A stretch of DNA of 29,470 nt from positions 1 through 29,470 of the IMG/VR virus record IMGVR_UViG_3300025112_004028; one strand, given 5' to 3'. How positions within the stretch are numbered: the first letter of the stretch is position 1; every line of letters begins with the position of its first letter. The notes beneath the pieces were generated by a model, which had not been told where the DNA came from, made no database searches, and was given only the letters and a program-made list of their open reading frames with translations. Position numbers and translations under genes: made by a program. Positions 2,388-21,765 of the stretch are shown here, in pieces. Source of the DNA: a virus.

Positions 2388-2600
2388 ATGACCAGTGCCG
2401 CTGAAATTGCACCAGAGATCCGCGTCAAAATAGTCGGCGACTTCGTCCGCGAGTATATGGACTGCGAGGTCAACGAGCGGCTTGCTGATGTGCTGAACCC
2501 AGTCACGCCCTCAGACGAAGCTGCCGCCATCACCATAATATATGAGATGAACGTCGAGAGCCTCATCGGGTTTTTCAAAACATGGGCGGATCATCAATGA
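2388..2600 (+). CDS. Small acidic hypothetical protein (70 aa)
   Basis: A compact frame with its ATG two bases after the LegF stop and its TGA overlapping the preferred ATG (2597) of the radical SAM gene, the same close packing as its neighbours. The protein starts MTSAAEIAPEIRVKIVGDF and looks wholly helical. It has no Cys or His ligands and no membrane segment. I do not recognise it. Its position inside the sugar operon could mean an accessory role, but small phage genes of unrelated function are also scattered through this cassette. Confidence 0.6.
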   Translation: MTSAAEIAPEIRVKIVGDFVREYMDCEVNERLADVLNPVTPSDEAAAITIIYEMNVESLIGFFKTWADHQ

Positions 2601-3556
2601 GCAACCCCTTCCAGCACTGGTACGATAGCTGCAACTCTGGTGACAGCGCCGCCAAGCTTGCCGCCCTTCCCCCCTTCCCCACCCACATCGATGTTGAACT
2701 GACCAGCGTTTGTAATTTCAGATGCCTGATGTGTCCCACCGGCAACCTATCCCTCCAGCGTGATGGTGAGTTCATGGAGTGGGATACGTTCGATCAGATC
2801 ATAGATCAGTGTGAGCCGCACGGCGCCGGCATCAGGTTCATTGGATGGGGCGAGCCGATGATGCATCCCCAGCTTTTCCGTTTCATACGCCGCGCCTCCG
2901 ACGCCCTTCTGCCTACGCACCTCAATACCAACGGGTCCAAGCTGCATCAGTATGAGCAGAACATGATCCTCAACATGGGTCTGGACAGCATCAAGGTTTC
3001 CATGCAGGGGACCACCGCGGAATCCTATCGCGACATGCGGAACATCGACTATTATGAGGGCGTCTTCACGGCAGTCAGAACTCTGCACCGACGCCGCGGC
3101 AACGCCCCTCGCCCGTGGATACATGTCTCGACCACCATCACCGACGAGCATCCTTCCACCGTCGAGGTGTTCAAGAAGCGGTTCGCCCCATACTGCGATC
3201 AGATCAGCGTCGGTTACACCACGTTCGACTACCTCGACCTCGCCGCCGTTCGCCTCGGCGATCAGGACCGCGAGCGCCTTGAGAAGATGGTCGCCAACCA
3301 AGAGGTGGAGAAGAGGCACCCGTCTTGCCCAGAGGTATACGACAAACTGACCATCCATGCTGACGGTTCGGCGCGGGTCTGTTGCAATGACTACAATGGA
3401 GAGACTTTTCTTGGCAACGTCAATGACACGCCTATAGGTGCGATGTTTCATCACCCAGTGATCAAGGAGTACCGAGAAAAGCTGGCTCGGGAAGAGCATG
3501 ACTACCTTCATTTGTGCGCGGACTGCTACGACTATATGGAGTTGACCAATGACTGA
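2597..3556 (+). CDS. Radical SAM/SPASM-domain protein
   Basis: A 319-aa radical SAM enzyme. The [4Fe-4S]/SAM motif CNFRCLMC is at residues 39-46, followed by the glycine-rich WGEPMMHP segment. A C-terminal SPASM-like region has Cys residues in SCPEVYD, ARVCCNDYNG and LCADCYD that could hold an auxiliary cluster. I chose the ATG at 2597, which overlaps the upstream TGA, over an in-frame ATG at 2582. Related SPASM proteins occur in bacterial surface-polysaccharide and nonulosonate gene clusters, where the substrate is often unknown. Its position next to LegF and the amidotransferase suggests modification of the sugar, but peptide modification cannot be excluded. Confidence 0.85.
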   Translation: MSNPFQHWYDSCNSGDSAAKLAALPPFPTHIDVELTSVCNFRCLMCPTGNLSLQRDGEFMEWDTFDQIIDQCEPHGAGIRFIGWGEPMMHPQLFRFIRRASDALLPTHLNTNGSKLHQYEQNMILNMGLDSIKVSMQGTTAESYRDMRNIDYYEGVFTAVRTLHRRRGNAPRPWIHVSTTITDEHPSTVEVFKKRFAPYCDQISVGYTTFDYLDLAAVRLGDQDRERLEKMVANQEVEKRHPSCPEVYDKLTIHADGSARVCCNDYNGETFLGNVNDTPIGAMFHHPVIKEYREKLAREEHDYLHLCADCYDYMELTND

Positions 3557-3815
3557 CGTTCCGCCTCCCGGCCGGCTGGCCCAGGCCCTCGGCGCCAACG
3601 CCGTCGCGACATGCACCTGTGGCTCGAACATCTTCTACCCTCTGGTCAAGCTACTCGAGGGCGTCATGGACAACTCCCTCGTCGCCATCAAATGCGTGGC
3701 ATGTAACGAGGAGACGGCGGTGCCGCTCGATCCGAAACGCGAGCAAGAGATCAAACCCTTCGACCGAAAACTTTCGAAAGAGATGGACCGCATGAGAAAA
3801 GAGAAGGCGAACTGA
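3549..3815 (+). CDS. Small zinc-ribbon-like hypothetical protein (88 aa)
   Basis: Overlaps the end of the radical SAM gene by eight bases and ends in TGATG with the HNH gene. Two cysteine pairs (CTCG at about residues 22-25 and CVAC at about 49-52) form a likely zinc-ribbon, followed by a highly charged helix rich in Lys, Arg and Glu. Such proteins are common small phage genes with nucleic-acid-binding or unknown roles. Nothing ties it to sugar synthesis except its place in the operon. Confidence 0.65.
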   Translation: MTDVPPPGRLAQALGANAVATCTCGSNIFYPLVKLLEGVMDNSLVAIKCVACNEETAVPLDPKREQEIKPFDRKLSKEMDRMRKEKAN

Positions 3816-5570: not shown

Positions 5571-6541
5571 TGAACTGGAACGGAATCAAAGTCTTCATTT
5601 CAGGATCTGATGGCTTTATCGGCTCCCACCTCGCCGAGGCTCTGGTCGAGCGCGGCGCTGATGTGACGGCGATGGCTCAGTACAACTCGTATGGCAAGCA
5701 TGGCTGGCTCGATGACAGCATGATGCGCCATGACATGAACCTGATCCACGGTGACATCAGGGATCCAGAGCAGACACGCGCACAGATCAACCATGATGTG
5801 GTGTTCCACCTTGCCGCCCTGATCTCTGTCCCGCACTCAAAGAACGCAGCCAGGGCTTACATGGACACCAACGCCTCTGGTACAATGAACGTCCTGATGG
5901 CGTCACGCGAAGCCAACAGGGTGGTGGTCACCTCAACGAGCGAGGTCTATGGAACAGCCAAGGTCGTCCCCATCATGGAAGGTCATAGCCTCAACCCTCA
6001 AAGTCCCTATGCGGCTTCGAAGGTTGCTGGTGATGCGATCGCTGGGTCTTTCTTCGAAACCTATGGGCTACCTGTTACGATCCTCCGACCGTTCAATACT
6101 TTTGGCCCCAGACAATCTGAGCGAGCTATCGTTCCAACCATCATCAGACAAGCCATTGACCCTCGTTGCCCGGTTGTTAAGCTCGGCTCCATTGACGCCC
6201 GCCGCGACCTCACCTTTGTTGGTGACACGGTCAACGCCTTCCTCGAGGTTGGCAGCTACGACAACCCGGTCTGCGTCGGCGAGACGTACAACTGTGGCGC
6301 CGGCAAGTCCCTCACCATCGGAGAACTCGCGCAGTACCTGTCCAACGGCAAGGAAATTGCGCTCGATGAAGAGCGAACGCGCAACAACGAGGTCTGGCAC
6401 CTCGAAGCCGGCACCACGAAGATCAGACAAGACACGGGCTGGGAGCCTGAAGTCTCGCTGACCGATGGCCTCGCCGTCACCAGAGATTGGTGGAGCTATC
6501 GGTTAGCGGAGATGAAAGACGAGGCTCGATATGTCGTTTGA
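5570..6541 (+). CDS. legB: NDP-N-acetylglucosamine 4,6-dehydratase (LegB-type SDR)
   Basis: A 323-aa extended short-chain dehydrogenase/reductase. The Rossmann motif GSDGFIG is at residues 12-18. TSTSEVYGTA at 121-130 supplies the dehydratase-type active-site segment, and Tyr147/Lys151 in SPYAASK form the YxxxK pair. LRPFNTFGPRQ and a C-terminal substrate-binding region follow. It matches the non-inverting 4,6-dehydratases of legionaminic and bacillosamine pathways, which make the 4-keto-6-deoxy sugar nucleotide using bound NAD. A strong AAGGGGG ribosome binding site precedes the ATG. It overlaps legC by 11 bases. Length is close to normal. Confidence 0.88.
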   Translation: MNWNGIKVFISGSDGFIGSHLAEALVERGADVTAMAQYNSYGKHGWLDDSMMRHDMNLIHGDIRDPEQTRAQINHDVVFHLAALISVPHSKNAARAYMDTNASGTMNVLMASREANRVVVTSTSEVYGTAKVVPIMEGHSLNPQSPYAASKVAGDAIAGSFFETYGLPVTILRPFNTFGPRQSERAIVPTIIRQAIDPRCPVVKLGSIDARRDLTFVGDTVNAFLEVGSYDNPVCVGETYNCGAGKSLTIGELAQYLSNGKEIALDEERTRNNEVWHLEAGTTKIRQDTGWEPEVSLTDGLAVTRDWWSYRLAEMKDEARYVV

Positions 6542-7541
6542 TATCCCGTTGCTTGAGCCGAACATGTCAGGCGGCTGGGAGCATACTTGCGTAGCGGCTG
6601 CGATAGATGGTAACGAGCCAACCCGCGGTGACTATGTCAAAGAGTTCGAAGAGCTTGTCGCCTCGGCGACCGGCAGGGTCTGGTGTGTGGCGCTTTGCAG
6701 CGGCACTGCGGCGCTACACACCGCCTTGCTCGCCCTCGGCACAGGTAAAGACCATGTGCTGGCGGTGCCGAGCTTCACCTTCGCTGCCACGGTCAACGCC
6801 ATCATCTATACCGGTGCTGCACCGTACTTCGTGGACATCGATGAGAACTGGGTGAGTAAAAGCCATCCTGATGGTGATGGCATATATGTCGAGGTCAACG
6901 GCAACCCTGCACCAGAGGGGGCCACCATTGTTGACGCCGCTCACTCCATGGGACGCGGCAAGATCGGCGGCCGCCTCGCCTGTCTCAGTTTCAACGGCAA
7001 CAAGATCATCACCACGGGCGGCGGCGGTGCGGTGATCGGGGATGACCCAGAGCTTGAGGCTCGTGTCAGATACCTCGCCAACCAATGCACCGACGAGAAG
7101 TACAAGCACGGCGCCATCGGCCTCAACTACCGTATGCCCAACATCAACGCAGCCATCGGCGTGGCGCAGATGCAGAGGCTCTATGAGTTTGTGGCGAAGA
7201 AGAAAGAGATACAGAAAATTTATCTTGAGGAACTGCCCTATGAACCTTTGGCTGGTAACGGGTTCTGGCTATCGGGTTACATCACCGACAATGCCGGCGA
7301 ACACATCGACGCCCTTCAAGCTATGGGCATCGAGGCGCAGCCGTTCTTCCACCCGCTACATCTTCAAGCCCCATACAAAGACTACCCGCGAGATGAACTG
7401 CCAAATACGGAGGCGATATACTCATGCATAGTGACACTGCCGTCATCGACAACCCTGACCGAGGAGCAACAGCAAAGAGTGATCGACGCTGTCTTGTCGT
7501 TACCAGTGGGAGAGCAGACGCCTCGCCGCTCAAGTGCGTGA
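6531..7541 (+). CDS. legC: PLP-dependent aminotransferase (LegC/DegT family)
   Basis: A 336-aa DegT/DnrJ/EryC1 aminotransferase that would aminate C4 of the 4-keto sugar nucleotide made by LegB, with glutamate as the usual amino donor. Visible features are CSGTAALHTALLAL (phosphate binding), VPSFTFAATVNA, VDAAHSMG and the PLP-lysine segment SFNGNKIITTGGGGA. The C-terminal LPSSTTLTEEQQQRV is conserved in the family. It is shorter than most LegC proteins (about 380 aa). Its last 118 bases overlap the start of legG in another frame, so the conserved C-terminus and the LegG N-terminus share DNA. Confidence 0.87.
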   Translation: MSFDIPLLEPNMSGGWEHTCVAAAIDGNEPTRGDYVKEFEELVASATGRVWCVALCSGTAALHTALLALGTGKDHVLAVPSFTFAATVNAIIYTGAAPYFVDIDENWVSKSHPDGDGIYVEVNGNPAPEGATIVDAAHSMGRGKIGGRLACLSFNGNKIITTGGGGAVIGDDPELEARVRYLANQCTDEKYKHGAIGLNYRMPNINAAIGVAQMQRLYEFVAKKKEIQKIYLEELPYEPLAGNGFWLSGYITDNAGEHIDALQAMGIEAQPFFHPLHLQAPYKDYPRDELPNTEAIYSCIVTLPSSTTLTEEQQQRVIDAVLSLPVGEQTPRRSSA

Positions 7542-8416
7542 TCGAGGAGCTTGAGAAGCGGTGTGATGTGTTTGTGGCTAATGCCCATGACGCCGAGACT
7601 TGCGTGGGCGTTCCTTCGTGGGAAGAGGTTGATGTGCTGATTCTGCTTGGGGATCGCTGGGAGGTGCTGTATGCGGCTGTTGATGCTGCTTGTAGCCGCA
7701 TCCCCATCGCCCACATCCATGGAGGGGAAAGCACATACGGCGCAATGGATGACAGTATGCGACACGCCATATCAAAGCTGTCCCACCTCCACTTCGTAGC
7801 CAACCATGACTTCGCCGCCGTCCTCCGTAAGATGGGCGAGCGCAACATATGGGTGACCGGGGCGCCGGGGCTGGACAACATGGTGCCGTATATGAAGATG
7901 AAGCGGAAGCCTGAGAAGTATTTCGTGGTGACCTATCATCCTGAGACGCTGGGCGACGACCACTTGCCGGCGCTGATAGCAGCACTCAAAGAGTTCCCAG
8001 ACTACACAGTTCTATGGACCGCCGTGAACAACGATCCCGGTTCTGATAATGTGCGGCAGACTATTAAGGATGCTGGAATCCGCATGGCTCATTGGTCCCT
8101 CGATCAGTATCTGCTCCAAATACATCAAGCCGCCGCCGTCATAGGCAACTCATCCTCTGGCATCATAGAGGCGCCGTACCTCGGGGTGCCGACCGTCAAC
8201 ATCGGGAAGAGGCAGGAGGGGCGACCGATGGGCGCATCGATCTGGTCAACTGATGGTGATCTGGTCAAGGGCATTGAGAACATGATCCAGCTTGCCATTG
8301 ATTATGACGGCTCCTTCGATCACCTCTACGGCGAACCCGGCGCATCCCGTCACATAGCCGAGGTCATCGCCACCCACCCACTGGATGACATACTGAGGAA
8401 GCCATGGGCAATATGA
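7424..8416 (+). CDS. legG: Hydrolysing NDP-sugar 2-epimerase (LegG/NeuC family)
   Basis: A 330-aa UDP/GDP-GlcNAc 2-epimerase-like enzyme. Family motifs include VVTSGRADASPL (residues 25-36), GDRWE (76-80), HIHGGE (97-102), GAPGLDN, TYHPET and GNSSSGIIEAP, so catalytic and nucleotide-binding positions look intact. It would release the nucleotide and epimerise C2, giving the 6-deoxy-mannosamine-type precursor for LegI. The start at 7424 follows a GGAGGC ribosome binding site and there is no later in-frame start before the conserved domain, so about 20 extra N-terminal residues are encoded inside legC. It is shorter than usual (about 370-390 aa). NeuC rather than PseG homology points to a Leg/Neu route, not pseudaminic acid. 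Confidence 0.88.
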   Translation: MHSDTAVIDNPDRGATAKSDRRCLVVTSGRADASPLKCVIEELEKRCDVFVANAHDAETCVGVPSWEEVDVLILLGDRWEVLYAAVDAACSRIPIAHIHGGESTYGAMDDSMRHAISKLSHLHFVANHDFAAVLRKMGERNIWVTGAPGLDNMVPYMKMKRKPEKYFVVTYHPETLGDDHLPALIAALKEFPDYTVLWTAVNNDPGSDNVRQTIKDAGIRMAHWSLDQYLLQIHQAAAVIGNSSSGIIEAPYLGVPTVNIGKRQEGRPMGASIWSTDGDLVKGIENMIQLAIDYDGSFDHLYGEPGASRHIAEVIATHPLDDILRKPWAI

Positions 8417-13080: not shown

Positions 13081-14109
13081 ATGGCATCAGAGCAGGAAGG
13101 CGGGGTCACCATAAACACAGAAACTGGTGAGCCAATGGAACGACAAGAACAAGAACAAGCCACGCAGCCAATAGAGAAGGGAGGGGCGCCACTCGGCACC
13201 CTTCCCCTCGGCTGCACCATCTTGGCGGGATATCAGAAAGAACACCTCCCCAAGGCCGTGGGCAAGAAGATCGCCATCGTCGGCACCTGTCCATCGCGGG
13301 AACAGGCGCCGGTCCATGACAAGACATGGGAGATATGGACGATCGGACCCGGCGGCAAGAACGCCCACCGATGGGAACGCCTATTTGAACTACACGGCGA
13401 GGGATCCTGGCCTGAAGGGTTCAGGTTCTATCTCGAGGAACTGAAGGCGGTTCTGCCGCCGCGCATCATCTATACCGAGGCTCCGATGCCAGACTGGCCG
13501 GCGAACCAAGTCCTGAACAGGGACGGGTTGTTCGGGAAATATGGCCGCATGTGGTTTCAGTCTCAGATCAGCTATGCCCTGGCGGTGGCGATCGAGGAAG
13601 GGGCTACGAGCATCGGCATATGGGGCATCGACCTCGAGGCTGGCGAGGAGTACCGATCGCAGTTCACCGGGGCGAAATACTTCATGCAGTTGGCTCAGTT
13701 GGCGGGCATCGACATCGTGGTGCCGGAAGGCTGTGGTCTATTGCGGGATCCGAATCCGTATCCAGACGCATGGGAGACGCATCTCGCCATGACGCTGAAG
13801 TCGAAGATCGATCACCTCGAGGGGCTGAAGAACGTCAAGATGAACCAGTTCGAGCAACTGAAGACGGACATCGCCGGTCTGACTGGCGAGATAGGTATGG
13901 CTCAGTTCCTCCACAGCCTCTATGTGATCTCGGCGGTGGACCCGAACCAGCCCAAGGCGCTTCAGGAGCGGACGCTGTCAGAGGTGACGAACAACATCGA
14001 GTTCATGGTCCGCGGCATCAAGGACAGCGAGGGTCATTTCGTGAAGCCAGACCCTGAACTACCCAAGGCTCTGGATGCGCTGCCTGATCAGTTCACGGGA
14101 GAGAAATAA
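13081..14109 (+). CDS. Rossmann-like phage protein, possible glycosyltransferase-like fold
   Basis: A 342-aa protein with a Gln/Glu-rich N-terminus followed by KKIAIVGTCPSREQAP (about residues 62-77), a Rossmann-type first strand and loop, then WEIWTIGPGG and FELHGEGSW. The later segment ISYALAVAIEEGATSIGIWG is followed by GIDL and, further on, GIDIVVPEGCGLL. Homologues of this type are often found beside phage terminases without known function. The strand-loop-helix order is reminiscent of GT42 sialyltransferases (GNGPS loop and xSGIDF motif), but identity is too low to assign by eye. A helical C-terminal domain of about 100 residues follows. RBS GAGGAAA precedes the ATG. Confidence 0.55.
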   Translation: MASEQEGGVTINTETGEPMERQEQEQATQPIEKGGAPLGTLPLGCTILAGYQKEHLPKAVGKKIAIVGTCPSREQAPVHDKTWEIWTIGPGGKNAHRWERLFELHGEGSWPEGFRFYLEELKAVLPPRIIYTEAPMPDWPANQVLNRDGLFGKYGRMWFQSQISYALAVAIEEGATSIGIWGIDLEAGEEYRSQFTGAKYFMQLAQLAGIDIVVPEGCGLLRDPNPYPDAWETHLAMTLKSKIDHLEGLKNVKMNQFEQLKTDIAGLTGEIGMAQFLHSLYVISAVDPNQPKALQERTLSEVTNNIEFMVRGIKDSEGHFVKPDPELPKALDALPDQFTGEK

Positions 14110-16694
14110 TAGACGGTCTTGAAGACGTTCTCCAAATACTAGGCGACCTACCTGACGAGGCGCGTGAGGAGGTATCGGTTCGCCGTGAGGAATCCACCGC
14201 TCACAGGAAGTGGACGCCGAACCTTGGACCTCAGTATGAAGCCTACATGTCGCCCGCCAATGAGCTACTGTTCGGAGGTCAGGCTGGACCGGGTAAGACC
14301 GATCTCGTTCTCGGACTGGCTTTCGAGAAGCACCTCCGCTCCCTCATCATGCGCCGGCAGTACACCGACATGGGGGCGATGACCGAGCGGGCGATCGAGA
14401 TCAACGGAACCCGTGACGGCTACTCAGGCTCCAACCCGATGAAGTTGCGGCCGGCGGGGCGCGATGATCAACTGATCGAGTTCGGAGCCTGTGCCAAGCT
14501 GGGAGATGAGCAGCACTGGCAGGGTCAGCCGCATGACTTGGTTTGTGTCGGGAAGGGAACGCCCGTGCTTATGGGTGATGGCAGCTATCAGTCCGTTGAG
14601 ACTTTAGCTGCCGGCGACATGGTTAAAACTCTAGAAGGGCCTCGTCGCATTGAGAGGATATTTCCCAAGCAGATCAAGGATGCCGTGAAGGTGACTGCCA
14701 TTGACGCCGATGGAAATGTCATTGCGTCACAAGTCCAGGGTTCTTCTCACAGGCTTCTAACCACCGCTGGGTGGGTTTGCCACGGTAAGTTCTGTGTATC
14801 ATCCCCTTCTTTGACTTCCGTACCCAAGGGGTTTTGTTCAGTTTTGCCATTTCTAACAGGGTGCGCTCTCCAATATGGAACCGCCTTGAGATATCTTGGA
14901 TGGAGTGCTTATCACTCAGTGCATAAGGCTCTATCTTCTTCCATGCCCTTGCATCATTTGGTCGCGTTGGCGATGACCTCTGTCTTGGGCCGACCAAGAT
15001 GGGAAAGTGTTTGCGTAGCGTATAGTGACTGCACCCAAGAAGCGTGGCTGCCTGTTTTACGGAGCGACCATCGAGGGCCTTTCGGACTTGGTCCTCAGAT
15101 GGACGGCGGGCGGCGTAGTACTCACGGGACCGCCTTCCTGTATGATATGAGCGATGATCAGAGAAGGTCATTATCAGAAGGTTCGATGGATCATTGTTCA
15201 AGGGGTCTTCGTCAATATGGTGGACGCACTCCCGGCGCTTTGGGTTCTTCCCCTTGCGAAGACGGCGGCCAGCTATATCTTCACCAATCAGGCGATGCTG
15301 TGCCACCCATCCCCACATGTTCGCATCCTGATGTTCAGGGACGAACTCATGGATATACTTGCCTAGAACCATTGTACGACCACCCTTATAGGACGGGTAA
15401 ACGTCAAGCGACTGAATCAGTGCGCGTTTCTTCATTTGATGTCCAATCTGTTGGTGTTCAAGAGCTTTATGATATCGAGGTTGAAGAAGTAAACCACTAT
15501 ATCACAGGTGGTGGCTTTATCAATAAGAACTGTTTTGATGAAGCCGTCCAGTTCCTCGAGATGCAAGTCCGCTACCTCTGTGGCTGGAACCGATCGACGG
15601 TACCGGAGCAGAGGTGCCGCATCGTGATGGCGACGAACCCACCCATCACCGCGGATGGCTACTGGATCATACCGATGTTTGCGCCCTGGCTGGACATCAC
15701 GTTCCCGAACCCTGCGAAGGAAGGTGATCTCAGGTGGGTGGTGACCGATCCCGATGGGCGGGACATGTGGGTGGATGGAGAGCATGATGTCAAAACATGG
15801 AACGGGAAAGACTATCACCCGATCAGCCGTACTTTTATACATGGAGAGCTTTCGGACAATCCCTACCTCATTAACACCGACTATAGTAAGCGTCTGGATC
15901 AATTACCTGAACCAATGCGGTCTGCCTACCGTGACGGCAACTTCATGGCGGCAAGAGAGGATACGGTCAATCAGGCTATCCCAACAGCGTGGGTCTTAGA
16001 GGCTCAGAACCGCTGGCGCCCACAGGTACCCGAGGGCATCCCGATGTGTTCGATGGGCGTGGACTGCTCGGGCGGCGGCAAGGATCCGATGATCATCGCC
16101 CGCCGCTTCGACGGCTGGTTCGATGAGATGCATGAGACGGCGGCAAAGGATATCCCAAAAGACCGCATCGGCCGCTACTGCACAGGCATCGTGGTTTCGG
16201 TGCGGCGTCAGGAAGCCAAGGTCATCATCGACATGGGCGGCGGCTACGGCGGCTCGATGTACGAGATACTGAAGGAGAACAACATTGACCCGATTCCGCA
16301 TAAAGGGGCAGAGAAAAGCACTGCCAGAACGAGTGACCGTAACCTCGGGTTCTATAACAAACGCTCCCAGGTTATATGGCAGTTCAGGGAGGCCCTGGAC
16401 CCCAACCAAGATGGAGGTTCACCGATCGCTCTACCGCGTGACCCAGAGTTGCTCGCCGACCTTACTGCCCCCACCTTTGAGATAGGAACCCGCGGTATCC
16501 AAGTTGAGACGAAAGAAAAGGTCGTCGATCGCCTCGGGCGCTCAACGGATAAGGGCGATGCGGTGTGCATGGCGTGGTCAGGTGGGGATAGGCGCCTATA
16601 TCAAGGTCGGCTCCAGGGGCGTTCCGGTGGCGGCCGCAAGCCGGAAGTGATGACCAAGAAGACGCAGCGCGGGCAGAAGAGGAGGAAGAGGTGA
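14109..16694 (+). CDS. terL: Terminase large subunit, interrupted by an intein
   Basis: ATP-driven DNA packaging motor. An N-terminal segment KWTPNLGPQYEAY precedes the Walker A loop GGQAGPGKT. The Walker B strand HDLV-CFDEA is split by the intein at 14544-15530. The C-terminal nuclease has GVDCSGGGKDP, VIIDMGGGYGG and STDKGDAVCMAW, supplying acidic metal ligands. After splicing the protein would be about 532 aa, a normal TerL length. The first in-frame ATG is 14247, directly before Walker A; the frame is open and family-like upstream to 14109, where an ATA overlaps the previous TAA six bases after GGGAGAG. I therefore propose a non-ATG start at 14109. Start uncertain; identity clear. Confidence 0.88.
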   Translation: MDGLEDVLQILGDLPDEAREEVSVRREESTAHRKWTPNLGPQYEAYMSPANELLFGGQAGPGKTDLVLGLAFEKHLRSLIMRRQYTDMGAMTERAIEINGTRDGYSGSNPMKLRPAGRDDQLIEFGACAKLGDEQHWQGQPHDLVCVGKGTPVLMGDGSYQSVETLAAGDMVKTLEGPRRIERIFPKQIKDAVKVTAIDADGNVIASQVQGSSHRLLTTAGWVCHGKFCVSSPSLTSVPKGFCSVLPFLTGCALQYGTALRYLGWSAYHSVHKALSSSMPLHHLVALAMTSVLGRPRWESVCVAYSDCTQEAWLPVLRSDHRGPFGLGPQMDGGRRSTHGTAFLYDMSDDQRRSLSEGSMDHCSRGLRQYGGRTPGALGSSPCEDGGQLYLHQSGDAVPPIPTCSHPDVQGRTHGYTCLEPLYDHPYRTGKRQATESVRVSSFDVQSVGVQELYDIEVEEVNHYITGGGFINKNCFDEAVQFLEMQVRYLCGWNRSTVPEQRCRIVMATNPPITADGYWIIPMFAPWLDITFPNPAKEGDLRWVVTDPDGRDMWVDGEHDVKTWNGKDYHPISRTFIHGELSDNPYLINTDYSKRLDQLPEPMRSAYRDGNFMAAREDTVNQAIPTAWVLEAQNRWRPQVPEGIPMCSMGVDCSGGGKDPMIIARRFDGWFDEMHETAAKDIPKDRIGRYCTGIVVSVRRQEAKVIIDMGGGYGGSMYEILKENNIDPIPHKGAEKSTARTSDRNLGFYNKRSQVIWQFREALDPNQDGGSPIALPRDPELLADLTAPTFEIGTRGIQVETKEKVVDRLGRSTDKGDAVCMAWSGGDRRLYQGRLQGRSGGGRKPEVMTKKTQRGQKRRKR
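14544..15530 (+). other. Intein in terminase Walker B, with antisense HNH insert
   Basis: In-frame 329-aa intein. Block A starts at Cys1: CVGKGTPVLMGDGSYQSVET. Block B is GSSHRLLTTAGW with His69. Block F is ELYDIEVEEVNHYI and block G is GGGFINKN, followed by extein Cys at 15531. The penultimate residue is Lys, not the usual His; the terminal Asn and +1 Cys are present. Removing it joins HDLV to CFDEA, restoring Walker B. The middle (about residues 84-297) does not resemble LAGLIDADG or an in-frame HNH domain; it is the reverse-strand image of an HNH gene, yet contains no stop in the intein frame. The splicing blocks alone would make a mini-intein of about 120 residues. Confidence 0.9.
14719..15435 (-). 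CDS. HNH homing endonuclease encoded antisense inside the TerL intein
   Basis: A 238-aa protein on the minus strand, wholly inside the intein. The HNH core is RRECVHHIDEDPLNNDPSNL (residues 67-86; His72-His73, Asp75, Asn81, Asn85), followed by His94 and His98. Two helix-turn-helix-like units follow: SVKQAATLLGCSHYTLRKHF (125-144) and SIQDISRRFHIGERTLLEMA (178-197), plausible target-recognition modules. Its start lies opposite intein block F and its last ten codons run up to and partly past block B. No strong ribosome binding site is seen (GGA eight bases before ATG). It presumably cuts intein-free terL alleles. An in-frame endonuclease would be normal for an intein; an opposite-strand one is not. 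Confidence 0.88.
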   Translation of the reverse strand: MKKRALIQSLDVYPSYKGGRTMVLGKYIHEFVPEHQDANMWGWVAQHRLIGEDIAGRRLRKGKNPKRRECVHHIDEDPLNNDPSNLLIMTFSDHRSYHTGRRSREYYAARRPSEDQVRKALDGRSVKQAATLLGCSHYTLRKHFPILVGPRQRSSPTRPNDARAWKKIEPYALSDKHSIQDISRRFHIGERTLLEMAKLNKTPWVRKSKKGMIHRTYRGKPTQRWLEACEKNPGLVTQ

Positions 16695-19959: not shown

Positions 19960-20878
19960 AGCAGCACCAGAAGTAGCACCGGAACCAGAACCCGCGCCGG
20001 CTCCAGAGCCAGCACCAGAACCAGCACCTGAATCGGCTCCAGAGCCGGCACCAGAACCCGCCGGCAAACAAGCCGAGTGGCGTGACGACTGGCGAGACGC
20101 GATGTCTGGCGACGACAAGGACTTCCGCGAGCGCCTCAACCGCTTCGACTCCCCGCGTGAGGTCGCCGACTGGGGACGCAACGCCGAGAAGATGTGGAAG
20201 CAGGGTGAGCTTCCCGATCCATTTCCGACAGAAGGGTCACCCGAGGACCAGTCCGCATGGCGGGCAACGCACGGCATCCCATCGGCGATGGACGAGTACT
20301 CCAAGCATTATCCCGAGGGCTTCACGGTTCCAGACGGAGATACGGACTTCGTGAACTCCTACCTCGAGGTGGCGTACAAGCACAACCTCGCGCCTGACGT
20401 TGTCAATGACATTCTGGTTTCGGTCTACGACCACGCCAATACCACGGCAGAGGGGCAGACCACGCAGGACGCAACCGATCAGGCGGCGACCACCGCGGCG
20501 ATACGGGACGAGTACGGTGACCAGGCGAAGGCGATGACGACCGCCGGCCTCGCCGTCATAGGTCTGATGTCGAAGGAGGCGGCGACCGACTTCATGCAGT
20601 CCCGCCTACCTGACGGCACGTTGATCGTGAACTCGCCCGAGCATATGCGGTGGCTCGCCAACCGTGGCATGGAAGCCGGCGTGACGGCACCAGCCGAGGG
20701 TTCGGCGGATGCGAAGTCCCTCGCCGCCGAGAAGGCGGAACTCGAAACCATGATGAAGGAGACGAAGGGTCCGTACTACACCGACGCCAAGGGCAAGGAC
20801 GGCATGACGAACCATCAGCGCCGGTATGCTGAGATTCTCACCGTCGAAGAGAACATGGCGAGGAGCAAGGCTCGATGA
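19952..20878 (+). CDS. Capsid assembly scaffold-like protein
   Basis: A 308-aa acidic protein with an N-terminal Pro-Ala-Glu-rich repeat (residues about 3-38), a central helical region (QAEWRDDWRDAMSGDDKDFR, then VADWGRNAEKMWKQGELPDP) and a charged C-terminal helix ending MARSKAR. This composition and its place directly before the capsid genes are typical of podovirus scaffold or capsid assembly proteins, which fill the procapsid during assembly. RBS AGGAAGAGG precedes the ATG. Unusually, it is followed not by the capsid gene but by a radical SAM gene that overlaps its stop (ATGA). Confidence 0.8.
   Translation: MAEAAPEVAPEPEPAPAPEPAPEPAPESAPEPAPEPAGKQAEWRDDWRDAMSGDDKDFRERLNRFDSPREVADWGRNAEKMWKQGELPDPFPTEGSPEDQSAWRATHGIPSAMDEYSKHYPEGFTVPDGDTDFVNSYLEVAYKHNLAPDVVNDILVSVYDHANTTAEGQTTQDATDQAATTAAIRDEYGDQAKAMTTAGLAVIGLMSKEAATDFMQSRLPDGTLIVNSPEHMRWLANRGMEAGVTAPAEGSADAKSLAAEKAELETMMKETKGPYYTDAKGKDGMTNHQRRYAEILTVEENMARSKAR
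19960..20062 (+). repeat. In-frame Pro-Ala-Glu coding repeat
   Basis: Degenerate hexanucleotide-type repeats (GCACCAGAACCA-like units) encode alternating PEPAPA/APEPAPE residues at the N-terminus of the scaffold-like protein. Such Pro-Ala-Glu linkers are extended and flexible. The repeat is purely coding and likely prone to length variation between related phages. Confidence 0.75.
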
Positions 20879-21765
20879 GGGGCATCCATGAAAACACGGT
20901 TATCCAGATCGACATCACCAATGCCTGTCACCTCGGTTGTGCCAACTGCACCCGTTTTGTTGGACATCACAGGAAGCCGTATTTCATGGACGATAAAACC
21001 TTCATCCAAGCTATTGGGTCACTGGATGGGTATCCCGGTCGTATCGGCATCATGGGTGGAGAACCCGCACTTCATCCGCGGTTCACCGTGCTGCTTGCCA
21101 AGTTTCGGGAGATGGTTCCCGATAAAGATAAAAGAGAAATGTGGACTTCAGGCTGGCAGTGGGCAGAGTATAAGGAGGATATCCTTGATACCTTTCACAA
21201 GGAGCGGGTGGCTTTCAACGACCACAGTCAGCCATCCGGTAGACACCAGCCACTTCTGGTCGCCATCGACGAGGTTGTTAAAGACGATGACTTGCGACGA
21301 ACGCTCATTGATAACTGCCCATTTCAGGCGCGATGGTCGGCTTCTATTACGCCAAAGGGGGCGTTCTTCTGTGAGATCGCCGCAGCACAGGACTGGCTAC
21401 TAGATGGACCCGGTGGGTACCCATTGGTAAAAGACTGGTGGAGGAAAGAACCAGATGCATTTCAAGACCAGGTTGAGACATACTGTGGCAAATGTTCAGG
21501 CGCACTGCCGATGCCTACCTACAGTGACGGACGCGGAGGCAGAGATGGCCCTACTCGGGACGTTGTGTCCCCTGGTAACCTCGAGCGGCTCCTTCGTGCT
21601 GGCTCCCCCAAATGTCAGCGAGATGATGTTGAAGTCTGGCGCAGCCATATCACTGAAGAAGGCATAGATCCTGACTGGAATCCGCGGGCGTTCCGAAACT
21701 TCGTCGCCCATGATCCTAAAGATGTGGAGGAAGCACTTGGCACCATAGTTGACACCACAACATGA
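20875..21765 (+). CDS. Radical SAM protein inserted between scaffold and capsid genes
   Basis: A 296-aa radical SAM enzyme. CHLGCANC at residues 18-25 is the CxxxCxxC cluster motif, and MGGEPALHP at 60-68 is the GGE SAM-binding motif. Cys in DNCPFQARW, GAFFCEIAAA and TYCGKCSGALPMP may bind an auxiliary cluster (SPASM/twitch-like). It resembles radical SAM proteins in polysaccharide regions with the same FNDHS and ITPKGAFFCE segments. It overlaps the scaffold stop by ATGA and is therefore co-expressed with head genes. Its substrate is unknown: a surface sugar, as the other cassette suggests, or a virion protein are both open. Confidence 0.83.
   Translation: MRGIHENTVIQIDITNACHLGCANCTRFVGHHRKPYFMDDKTFIQAIGSLDGYPGRIGIMGGEPALHPRFTVLLAKFREMVPDKDKREMWTSGWQWAEYKEDILDTFHKERVAFNDHSQPSGRHQPLLVAIDEVVKDDDLRRTLIDNCPFQARWSASITPKGAFFCEIAAAQDWLLDGPGGYPLVKDWWRKEPDAFQDQVETYCGKCSGALPMPTYSDGRGGRDGPTRDVVSPGNLERLLRAGSPKCQRDDVEVWRSHITEEGIDPDWNPRAFRNFVAHDPKDVEEALGTIVDTTT

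Follow-up and report, generated by a model that had tools for sequence, protein, structure and literature searches.

An HNH endonuclease gene antisense to a phage terminase intein, with the sense frame of the intein kept free of stop codons

The DNA analysed here, referred to below as the window, is the complete stretch of 29,470 nucleotides of the IMG/VR virus record IMGVR_UViG_3300025112_004028. Its gene for the large terminase subunit, terL, is contained in a continuous frame on the plus strand (14109–16694), without a stop codon across an intein that lies within it, and the centre of this intein carries an HNH endonuclease gene on the opposite strand. The features of the locus are the following:

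14109–14543, plus strand: TerL N-extein, with Walker A, ending in HWQGQPHDLV; PHROG terminase large subunit match at E 4e-25, aligned with intein-free TerL
14544–14789, plus strand: N-terminal Hint half of the intein, with Cys1, block A and block B; pLDDT 81–96, alignment of 15 inteins
14719–15435, minus strand: gene for an HNH endonuclease of 238 aa, ATG start, TGA stop, antisense in the intein centre
about 14739–14777, plus strand: block B with the invariant His69, from the alignment of 15 inteins
14790–15371, plus strand: linker of about 195 residues in the sense frame, stop-free, predicted to be disordered, opposite the HNH gene
15010–15093, minus strand: helix-turn-helix (HTH) DNA-binding region, HTH_23/NUMOD1-like
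15151–15222, minus strand: HNH catalytic motif HHID...NN...N...H, HNH_3 match, protein residues 47–94
15372–15530, plus strand: C-terminal Hint half of the intein, YxHPY...LYDIEV.EVNHYIT..GFINKN, ending in Asn329; pLDDT about 81–94 over most of its length
15496–15523, minus strand: promoter-like TTGATA-16-TATAGT with TG, sigma70-like, within the codons of blocks F/G and 60 nt 5' of the antisense ATG
15531–16694, plus strand: TerL C-extein, from Cys+1 of CFDEA (Walker B), nuclease domain included

The intein (14544–15530) comprises 329 residues without a stop and is of the Cys1/Asn-Cys type (C1...N329/C); it starts with CVGKGTPVLM and ends with VNHYITGGGFINKN, followed by Cys. C1, H69 and N329 are invariant in 15 aligned inteins, and Cys+1 is found in all 14 members of the family described below as well as in contig L112, which carries a mini-intein of 151 aa at the same site (7148–7600) without an HNH gene; L121 encodes an identical sequence. 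Comparison with this mini-intein and an AlphaFold model delimit the Hint halves, which correspond to intein residues 1 to about 82 and about 277–329, and the linker of about 195 residues between them. Based on a 15-row alignment, the model reaches a pLDDT of about 81–96 across most of both Hint parts, while nearly all of residues 82–273 have values below 50; the linker between the Hint halves is thus predicted to be disordered. The initial annotation had described a linker of roughly 215 residues opposite the nuclease, which is indeed present and stop-free, albeit shorter than stated. In a Foldseek search against the PDB, the best matches of the intein model were all inteins (gp41-1, PI-SceI, Prp8, DnaB and RecA), with gp41-1 at the top and both gp41-1 and PI-SceI at E about 1e-4. 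With the Pfam Hint models the window intein stays under the cut-off (E 3e-4), and TIGR01443 is over its cut-off in the window with the precursor only. Instead of the usual His, Lys occupies the penultimate position of the intein, and across the inteins of the family Lys, Arg, Ser or Gln is found there, never His; inteins without a penultimate His can be active, though they are not canonical. A group I or group II intron was ruled out, as Rfam at the gathering threshold gives no match anywhere in the window and the frame is open throughout.

Within terL, the intein is located in Walker B (LV^CFDEA), directly 5' of the Cys. Intein-free sisters with TerL proteins 81–84% identical to that of the window, and intein-free relatives from IMG/VR, including L003, L004 and L009 at about 80% TerL identity, align flush through this site, with LV/C-FDEA in the window versus LV/A-FDET in the sister, indicating that the insertion is exact. 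The proposal of the initial annotation, a terminase intein at 14544–15530 with a frame free of stops opposite the whole HNH gene, is borne out by the conserved splicing residues, the exact junction, the predicted Hint fold and the uninterrupted sense frame, and the findings that would have spoken against it did not materialize. The join expected at HDLV/CFDEA is indeed seen in intein-free terL genes; an assembly chimera at 14544–15530 is excluded by a second IMG/VR contig (L001/L002) that is 100% identical to the window across 7,397 nt, together with 13 diverged homologues; and no in-frame endonuclease domain was detected in the sense centre of the intein by profile search, this region being predicted as disordered. 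As a separate observation, the frame of the 861-aa precursor contains no ATG, GTG or TTG in 14109–14246, that is, in the conserved first 46 codons of TerL, and would start at an ATA that overlaps with the stop codon 5' of it.

The antisense protein is matched by Pfam HNH_3 (E 5e-6), by a PHROG HNH endonuclease (E 1e-14) and by HTH profiles, and these matches, along with the ORF itself, substantiate the earlier claim of a complete antisense HNH gene of 238 aa at 14719–15435. Its residues His72, His73, Asn81, Asn85 and His94 are invariant in all 14 family members, and HNH_3 was found, with HTH matches, in each of the seven members that were scanned. The model of the protein has a pLDDT of 89.5; a fold search with it returned no significant PDB match and only weak ones to HTH proteins such as the Tc3 bipartite HTH.

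A first search of IMG/VR for related elements, with GxxHDLxC....T.V written as a degenerate DNA pattern, yielded 12 contigs, several of them with terminase inteins at the same site that are open throughout and have an antisense ORF of 230–270 aa. The full family set was obtained by searching IMG/VR with an alignment of the antisense proteins (A2), where a sharp gap separates full-length HNH relatives (E 1e-43 or better) from matches to the HNH core only (E 3e-15 or worse). The family comprises 14 distinct members, namely the window, taken once, and 13 further phage contigs (L111, L113, L116, L117, L119, L122, L125, L128, L129, L132, L133, L134 and L135), all of them metagenomic, with no cultured phage among them. 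In 14 of 14, the HNH gene runs antisense within a TerL intein that occupies the identical site, in the identical frame relation and with an ATG start, and the same unbroken TerL frame is found in the 13 further members; whether homologues share the antisense HNH gene, a question raised by the initial annotation, is thereby answered in the affirmative. The HNH proteins of the other members are 39–51% identical to that of the window. Every full-length HNH homologue found sits in such a TerL intein, and no free-standing full-length relative was found; the full-length family was also not detected in INPHARED phages, in PLSDB plasmids or in 385 genomes of one bacterial class, the last being a small sample without a positive control. 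Two other matches were discarded: one in Klebsiella JD001 to the N-terminal block, which turned out to be a conventional in-frame intein, its host gene being annotated as terminase/helicase, and one in phage TPWB-08, which lies at the record end beside a helicase feature and is unrelated. In two members, L125 and L135, TerL has a further in-frame insertion with intein-like ends in Walker A, besides the Walker B intein.

In a tree of 102 TerL proteins, the presence of the intein (mini-intein included) requires at least seven changes, and the nearest sisters of the window are devoid of it; the intein-free rows of this tree were picked for their likeness to the window and do not constitute an unbiased sample. 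The HNH and TerL trees agree in part, indicating that vertical descent also occurs, and transfer between hosts cannot be proven from the HNH and Hint trees, whose support is too weak. It is conceivable that the element is immobile, with an intein that splices and an HNH gene that is merely a decaying remnant, as the deep divergence, the partly vertical grouping of some members and the lack of close intein copies in different phages would suggest. However, the catalytic His and Asn residues are invariant across 14 lineages, HNH third codon positions drift while first and second positions are kept, and the window intein is absent from a sister with 81–84% TerL identity, and we regard immobility as unlikely.

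A further possibility is that the antisense HNH protein is a packaging-associated cofactor of the terminase rather than a homing nuclease, given that HNH proteins encoded near terminase genes are said, in work by Kala et al. from 2014, to take part in packaging in some phages. Such packaging HNH genes are, as far as we are aware, separate genes on the sense strand, whereas the present HNH family is found inside inteins only; moreover, its proteins have HTH DNA-binding regions typical of homing nucleases, and the HNH-bearing intein is absent from the closest sister TerL, all of which renders a role in packaging distinctly improbable.

With respect to the register of the two genes, codon position 1 lies opposite position 1, and sense position 2 opposite HNH position 3, meaning that the overlap is not in the codon-complement frame, which is often open in the window. 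The open sense frame might be attributed to base composition or codon bias alone, with the HNH gene lying opposite by chance, and long antisense ORFs do exist elsewhere in the window, for example at 2747–3631 on the minus strand (294 aa); these, however, use the codon-complement frame, which the intein HNH gene does not. Under synonymous shuffling, the window HNH gene acquires 6.8 sense stops on average, and only 1 of 50,000 shuffles has none. Over the family, the same procedure predicts 4.8–11.2 sense stops per gene and about 109 in total, versus none observed in any of the 14 members; for the linker only, with the Hint-coding ends excluded, the figures for the 14 members are 84 expected and 0 observed. 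Among 41 free-standing HNH relatives, none is open in the equivalent frame, where stops average 12 per 230 codons. Full shuffles, middle-only shuffles and free-standing relatives thus all predict several stops per gene, and yet the frame is open in 14 of 14 members despite strongly diverged HNH third positions, so that chance openness is refuted and can be given practically no weight. The comparison with homologous HNH genes, suggested at the outset, shows the open sense frame to be unexpected and strongly supports a frame that is kept open.

For the HNH gene, identity by codon position is 0.56/0.61/0.36, with strongly diverged third positions, indicating that the HNH protein is the selected product. 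The sense frame in the middle of the intein has values of 0.55/0.36/0.57, which are the mirror image of the HNH pattern, and no sense-level conservation beyond this mirror image was found in the linker. One might nevertheless suspect that the sense linker is a functional protein, with protein-level selection on both strands. At its ends, the HNH gene overlaps the Hint motifs: block B (14739–14777) lies inside its 3' end and the YxHPYT motif also falls within the gene, so that short stretches at both ends are truly dual-coded. The central sense pattern, however, merely mirrors HNH conservation, and the linker has no profile matches and a pLDDT below 50, making a functional linker very unlikely. 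As judged from the codon-position identities, the middle of the intein is selected as HNH only, while its sense reading is held stop-free and is otherwise unconstrained.

Signals for separate expression of the antisense gene are present to varying degrees. A Shine-Dalgarno-like site is located 5' of the antisense ATG in most members (GGGGAGG in L113, AAAGGA in L119 and L122, AGGAG in L132, GAGGAGG in L128); that of the window itself is weak (TTGGAC). Hexamers related to the promoter-like sequence of the window recur at a fixed register in most members, with perfect TTGACA/TATAAT in L113 and L132 and a poor match in L134, and the fixed-register promoter score lies above synonymous nulls (P 0.002 and 0.007, in a post hoc test). 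The last 30 codons of the intein are AT-rich, and part of the likeness to a promoter is imposed by HYIT..GF.NKN, a protein motif that thereby biases the null. A sigma70-like promoter for the antisense HNH gene at a fixed position is consequently no more than suggestive, the host also being unknown. A terminator scan gave no hit.

We interpret the locus, with a probability of roughly 85%, as a mobile terminase intein of previously undescribed layout, the homing nuclease of which is an autonomous gene on the opposite strand. The anatomy of this element, its conservation, the maintenance of the frame and its scattered distribution are established at the level of sequence comparison, while splicing, antisense expression and homing are inferred. 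A cis-splicing Hint (mini-intein) domain would be translated together with TerL and excise itself at LV^CFDEA. The homing endonuclease would not be a domain of the intein; an HNH-HTH gene of the opposite strand would encode it, situated in the interval from block B to block F that is the usual place of intein endonucleases. Transcription of this gene would probably start at the putative promoter within the reverse complement of blocks F/G. Read in the TerL frame, the HNH DNA would amount to a long unstructured, stop-free linker and nothing else. The nuclease may then cut intein-free terL at Walker B, whereupon repair would copy in the composite element. Selection would maintain the HNH protein as well as the two Hint halves and would also act against sense stops, as we propose that a single one of these would abolish an enzyme essential for packaging. 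The inference of TerL splicing rests on the anatomy, on essentiality and on the exactness of the site, that of separate production of the HNH protein on its protein-level conservation and on the start and ribosome-site signals, and that of homing into intein-free terL on family membership and patchy distribution.

The prevailing view of inteins has been that the nuclease is either encoded in frame or lost. The initial annotation knew of no described case of the arrangement found here, and searching the literature for inteins with an antisense or opposite-strand endonuclease likewise brought up no published one; two candidate papers use the wording 'complementary strand' for contig orientation only. 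TerL inteins are known from mycobacteriophages (PMC5050341). As in these and other large inteins of the PI-SceI type, the nuclease of the window element is placed between blocks B and F of a Hint domain, and as in the mycobacteriophage TerL inteins, the insertion affects an ATPase motif of TerL (PMC5050341); in contrast to large inteins with an in-frame endonuclease, however, the window nuclease is a separate HNH gene on the other strand, outside the translated intein. Antisense homing endonuclease genes have been described for the Didymium group I introns Dsq.L2066 and Dir.S956-2, where they are transcribed from the opposite strand (PMC9548176), and the window element resembles these introns in being a selfish splicing element with a nuclease gene antisense to the host gene. 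Group I introns splice as RNA, and therefore their host frame need not be open, whereas the sense frame in the window must be. The ShiLan domain is an HNH domain hidden out-of-frame in insertions of phage methylases (PMC11855218). The window shares with it an HNH in a different frame of an insertion whose host frame stays open, but differs in that its HNH gene is antisense and a clear intein is present, while ShiLan is on the same strand and no splicing domain has been found (PMC11855218). In L160, L193 and L194, a second sense frame of a methylase ORF encodes an HNH, like the published ShiLan-type hidden HNH, and a phage DNA methylase in L155 (2547–3407) has intein-like ends (C1...GN/S) without a profile match and an HNH at 2632–3321 on the same strand in a different frame. 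Finally, Dassa et al. reportedly described in 2009 fractured phage genes with split inteins and free-standing endonucleases. These would be similar in having a separate endonuclease gene between intein halves, and gp41-1 is the top fold match of the window intein, but the host gene in the window is unsplit, with one frame crossing the endonuclease gene.

The layout is probably not confined to a single origin. In L144, a different terminase contains a Walker A intein of 287 aa on the minus strand (2665–3550; GGK/C...HHN/T), for which PF14890 is just under its cut-off (E 9e-8), TIGR01445 at the cut-off and TIGR01443 above it. Inside this intein lies an antisense HNH_3 protein in the same frame relation, opposite a sense frame with 0 stops versus 12 expected; no other full-length relative of this HNH was found in IMG/VR. 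As the L144 intein differs from the window family in its Hint sequence, in where it is inserted and in the context of its HNH, inteins with an antisense HNH gene would, by these comparisons, probably have arisen independently at least twice. Together, L144 and the intein-like insertion of L155 hint at several origins for nucleases encoded outside the frame of their intein. Capture of a free-standing HNH gene by a mini-intein is plausible, but this route is unproven, because no free-standing full-length relative has been found. We lean towards the broader view that phages harbour a distinct class of mobile inteins with an opposite-strand nuclease, a promoter hidden in the splicing motifs, multiple origins and, on the sense side, selection that does nothing but purge stops, whereby hundreds of codons of the host frame would stay open.

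In this family, a splicing element and its nuclease are separate genes on opposite strands of one piece of DNA, an arrangement kept in 14 deeply diverged phages, and it provides an unusually clean natural example of a long antisense overlap, coding on one strand and merely stop-free on the other. It also points to inteins tolerating linkers of about 200 residues. The layout uncouples nuclease expression from expression of the host gene and, if our interpretation is correct, terminase and nuclease expression would be mutually antisense, which, as the initial annotation proposed, might confine homing to another phase of infection. The layout further hints at a way in which fractured genes and split inteins may originate. 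Under the broader view above, such an element would represent a natural intermediate between a mini-intein plus free-standing endonuclease and split-intein fractured genes. More such nucleases may hide in other inteins, as annotation of the large terminase frame only would miss them.

Apart from this locus, the window encodes an aminotransferase-like protein (6531–7541) in this phage contig, and two radical-SAM-like proteins (2582–3556 and 20875–21765), the second of which is a weak assignment.
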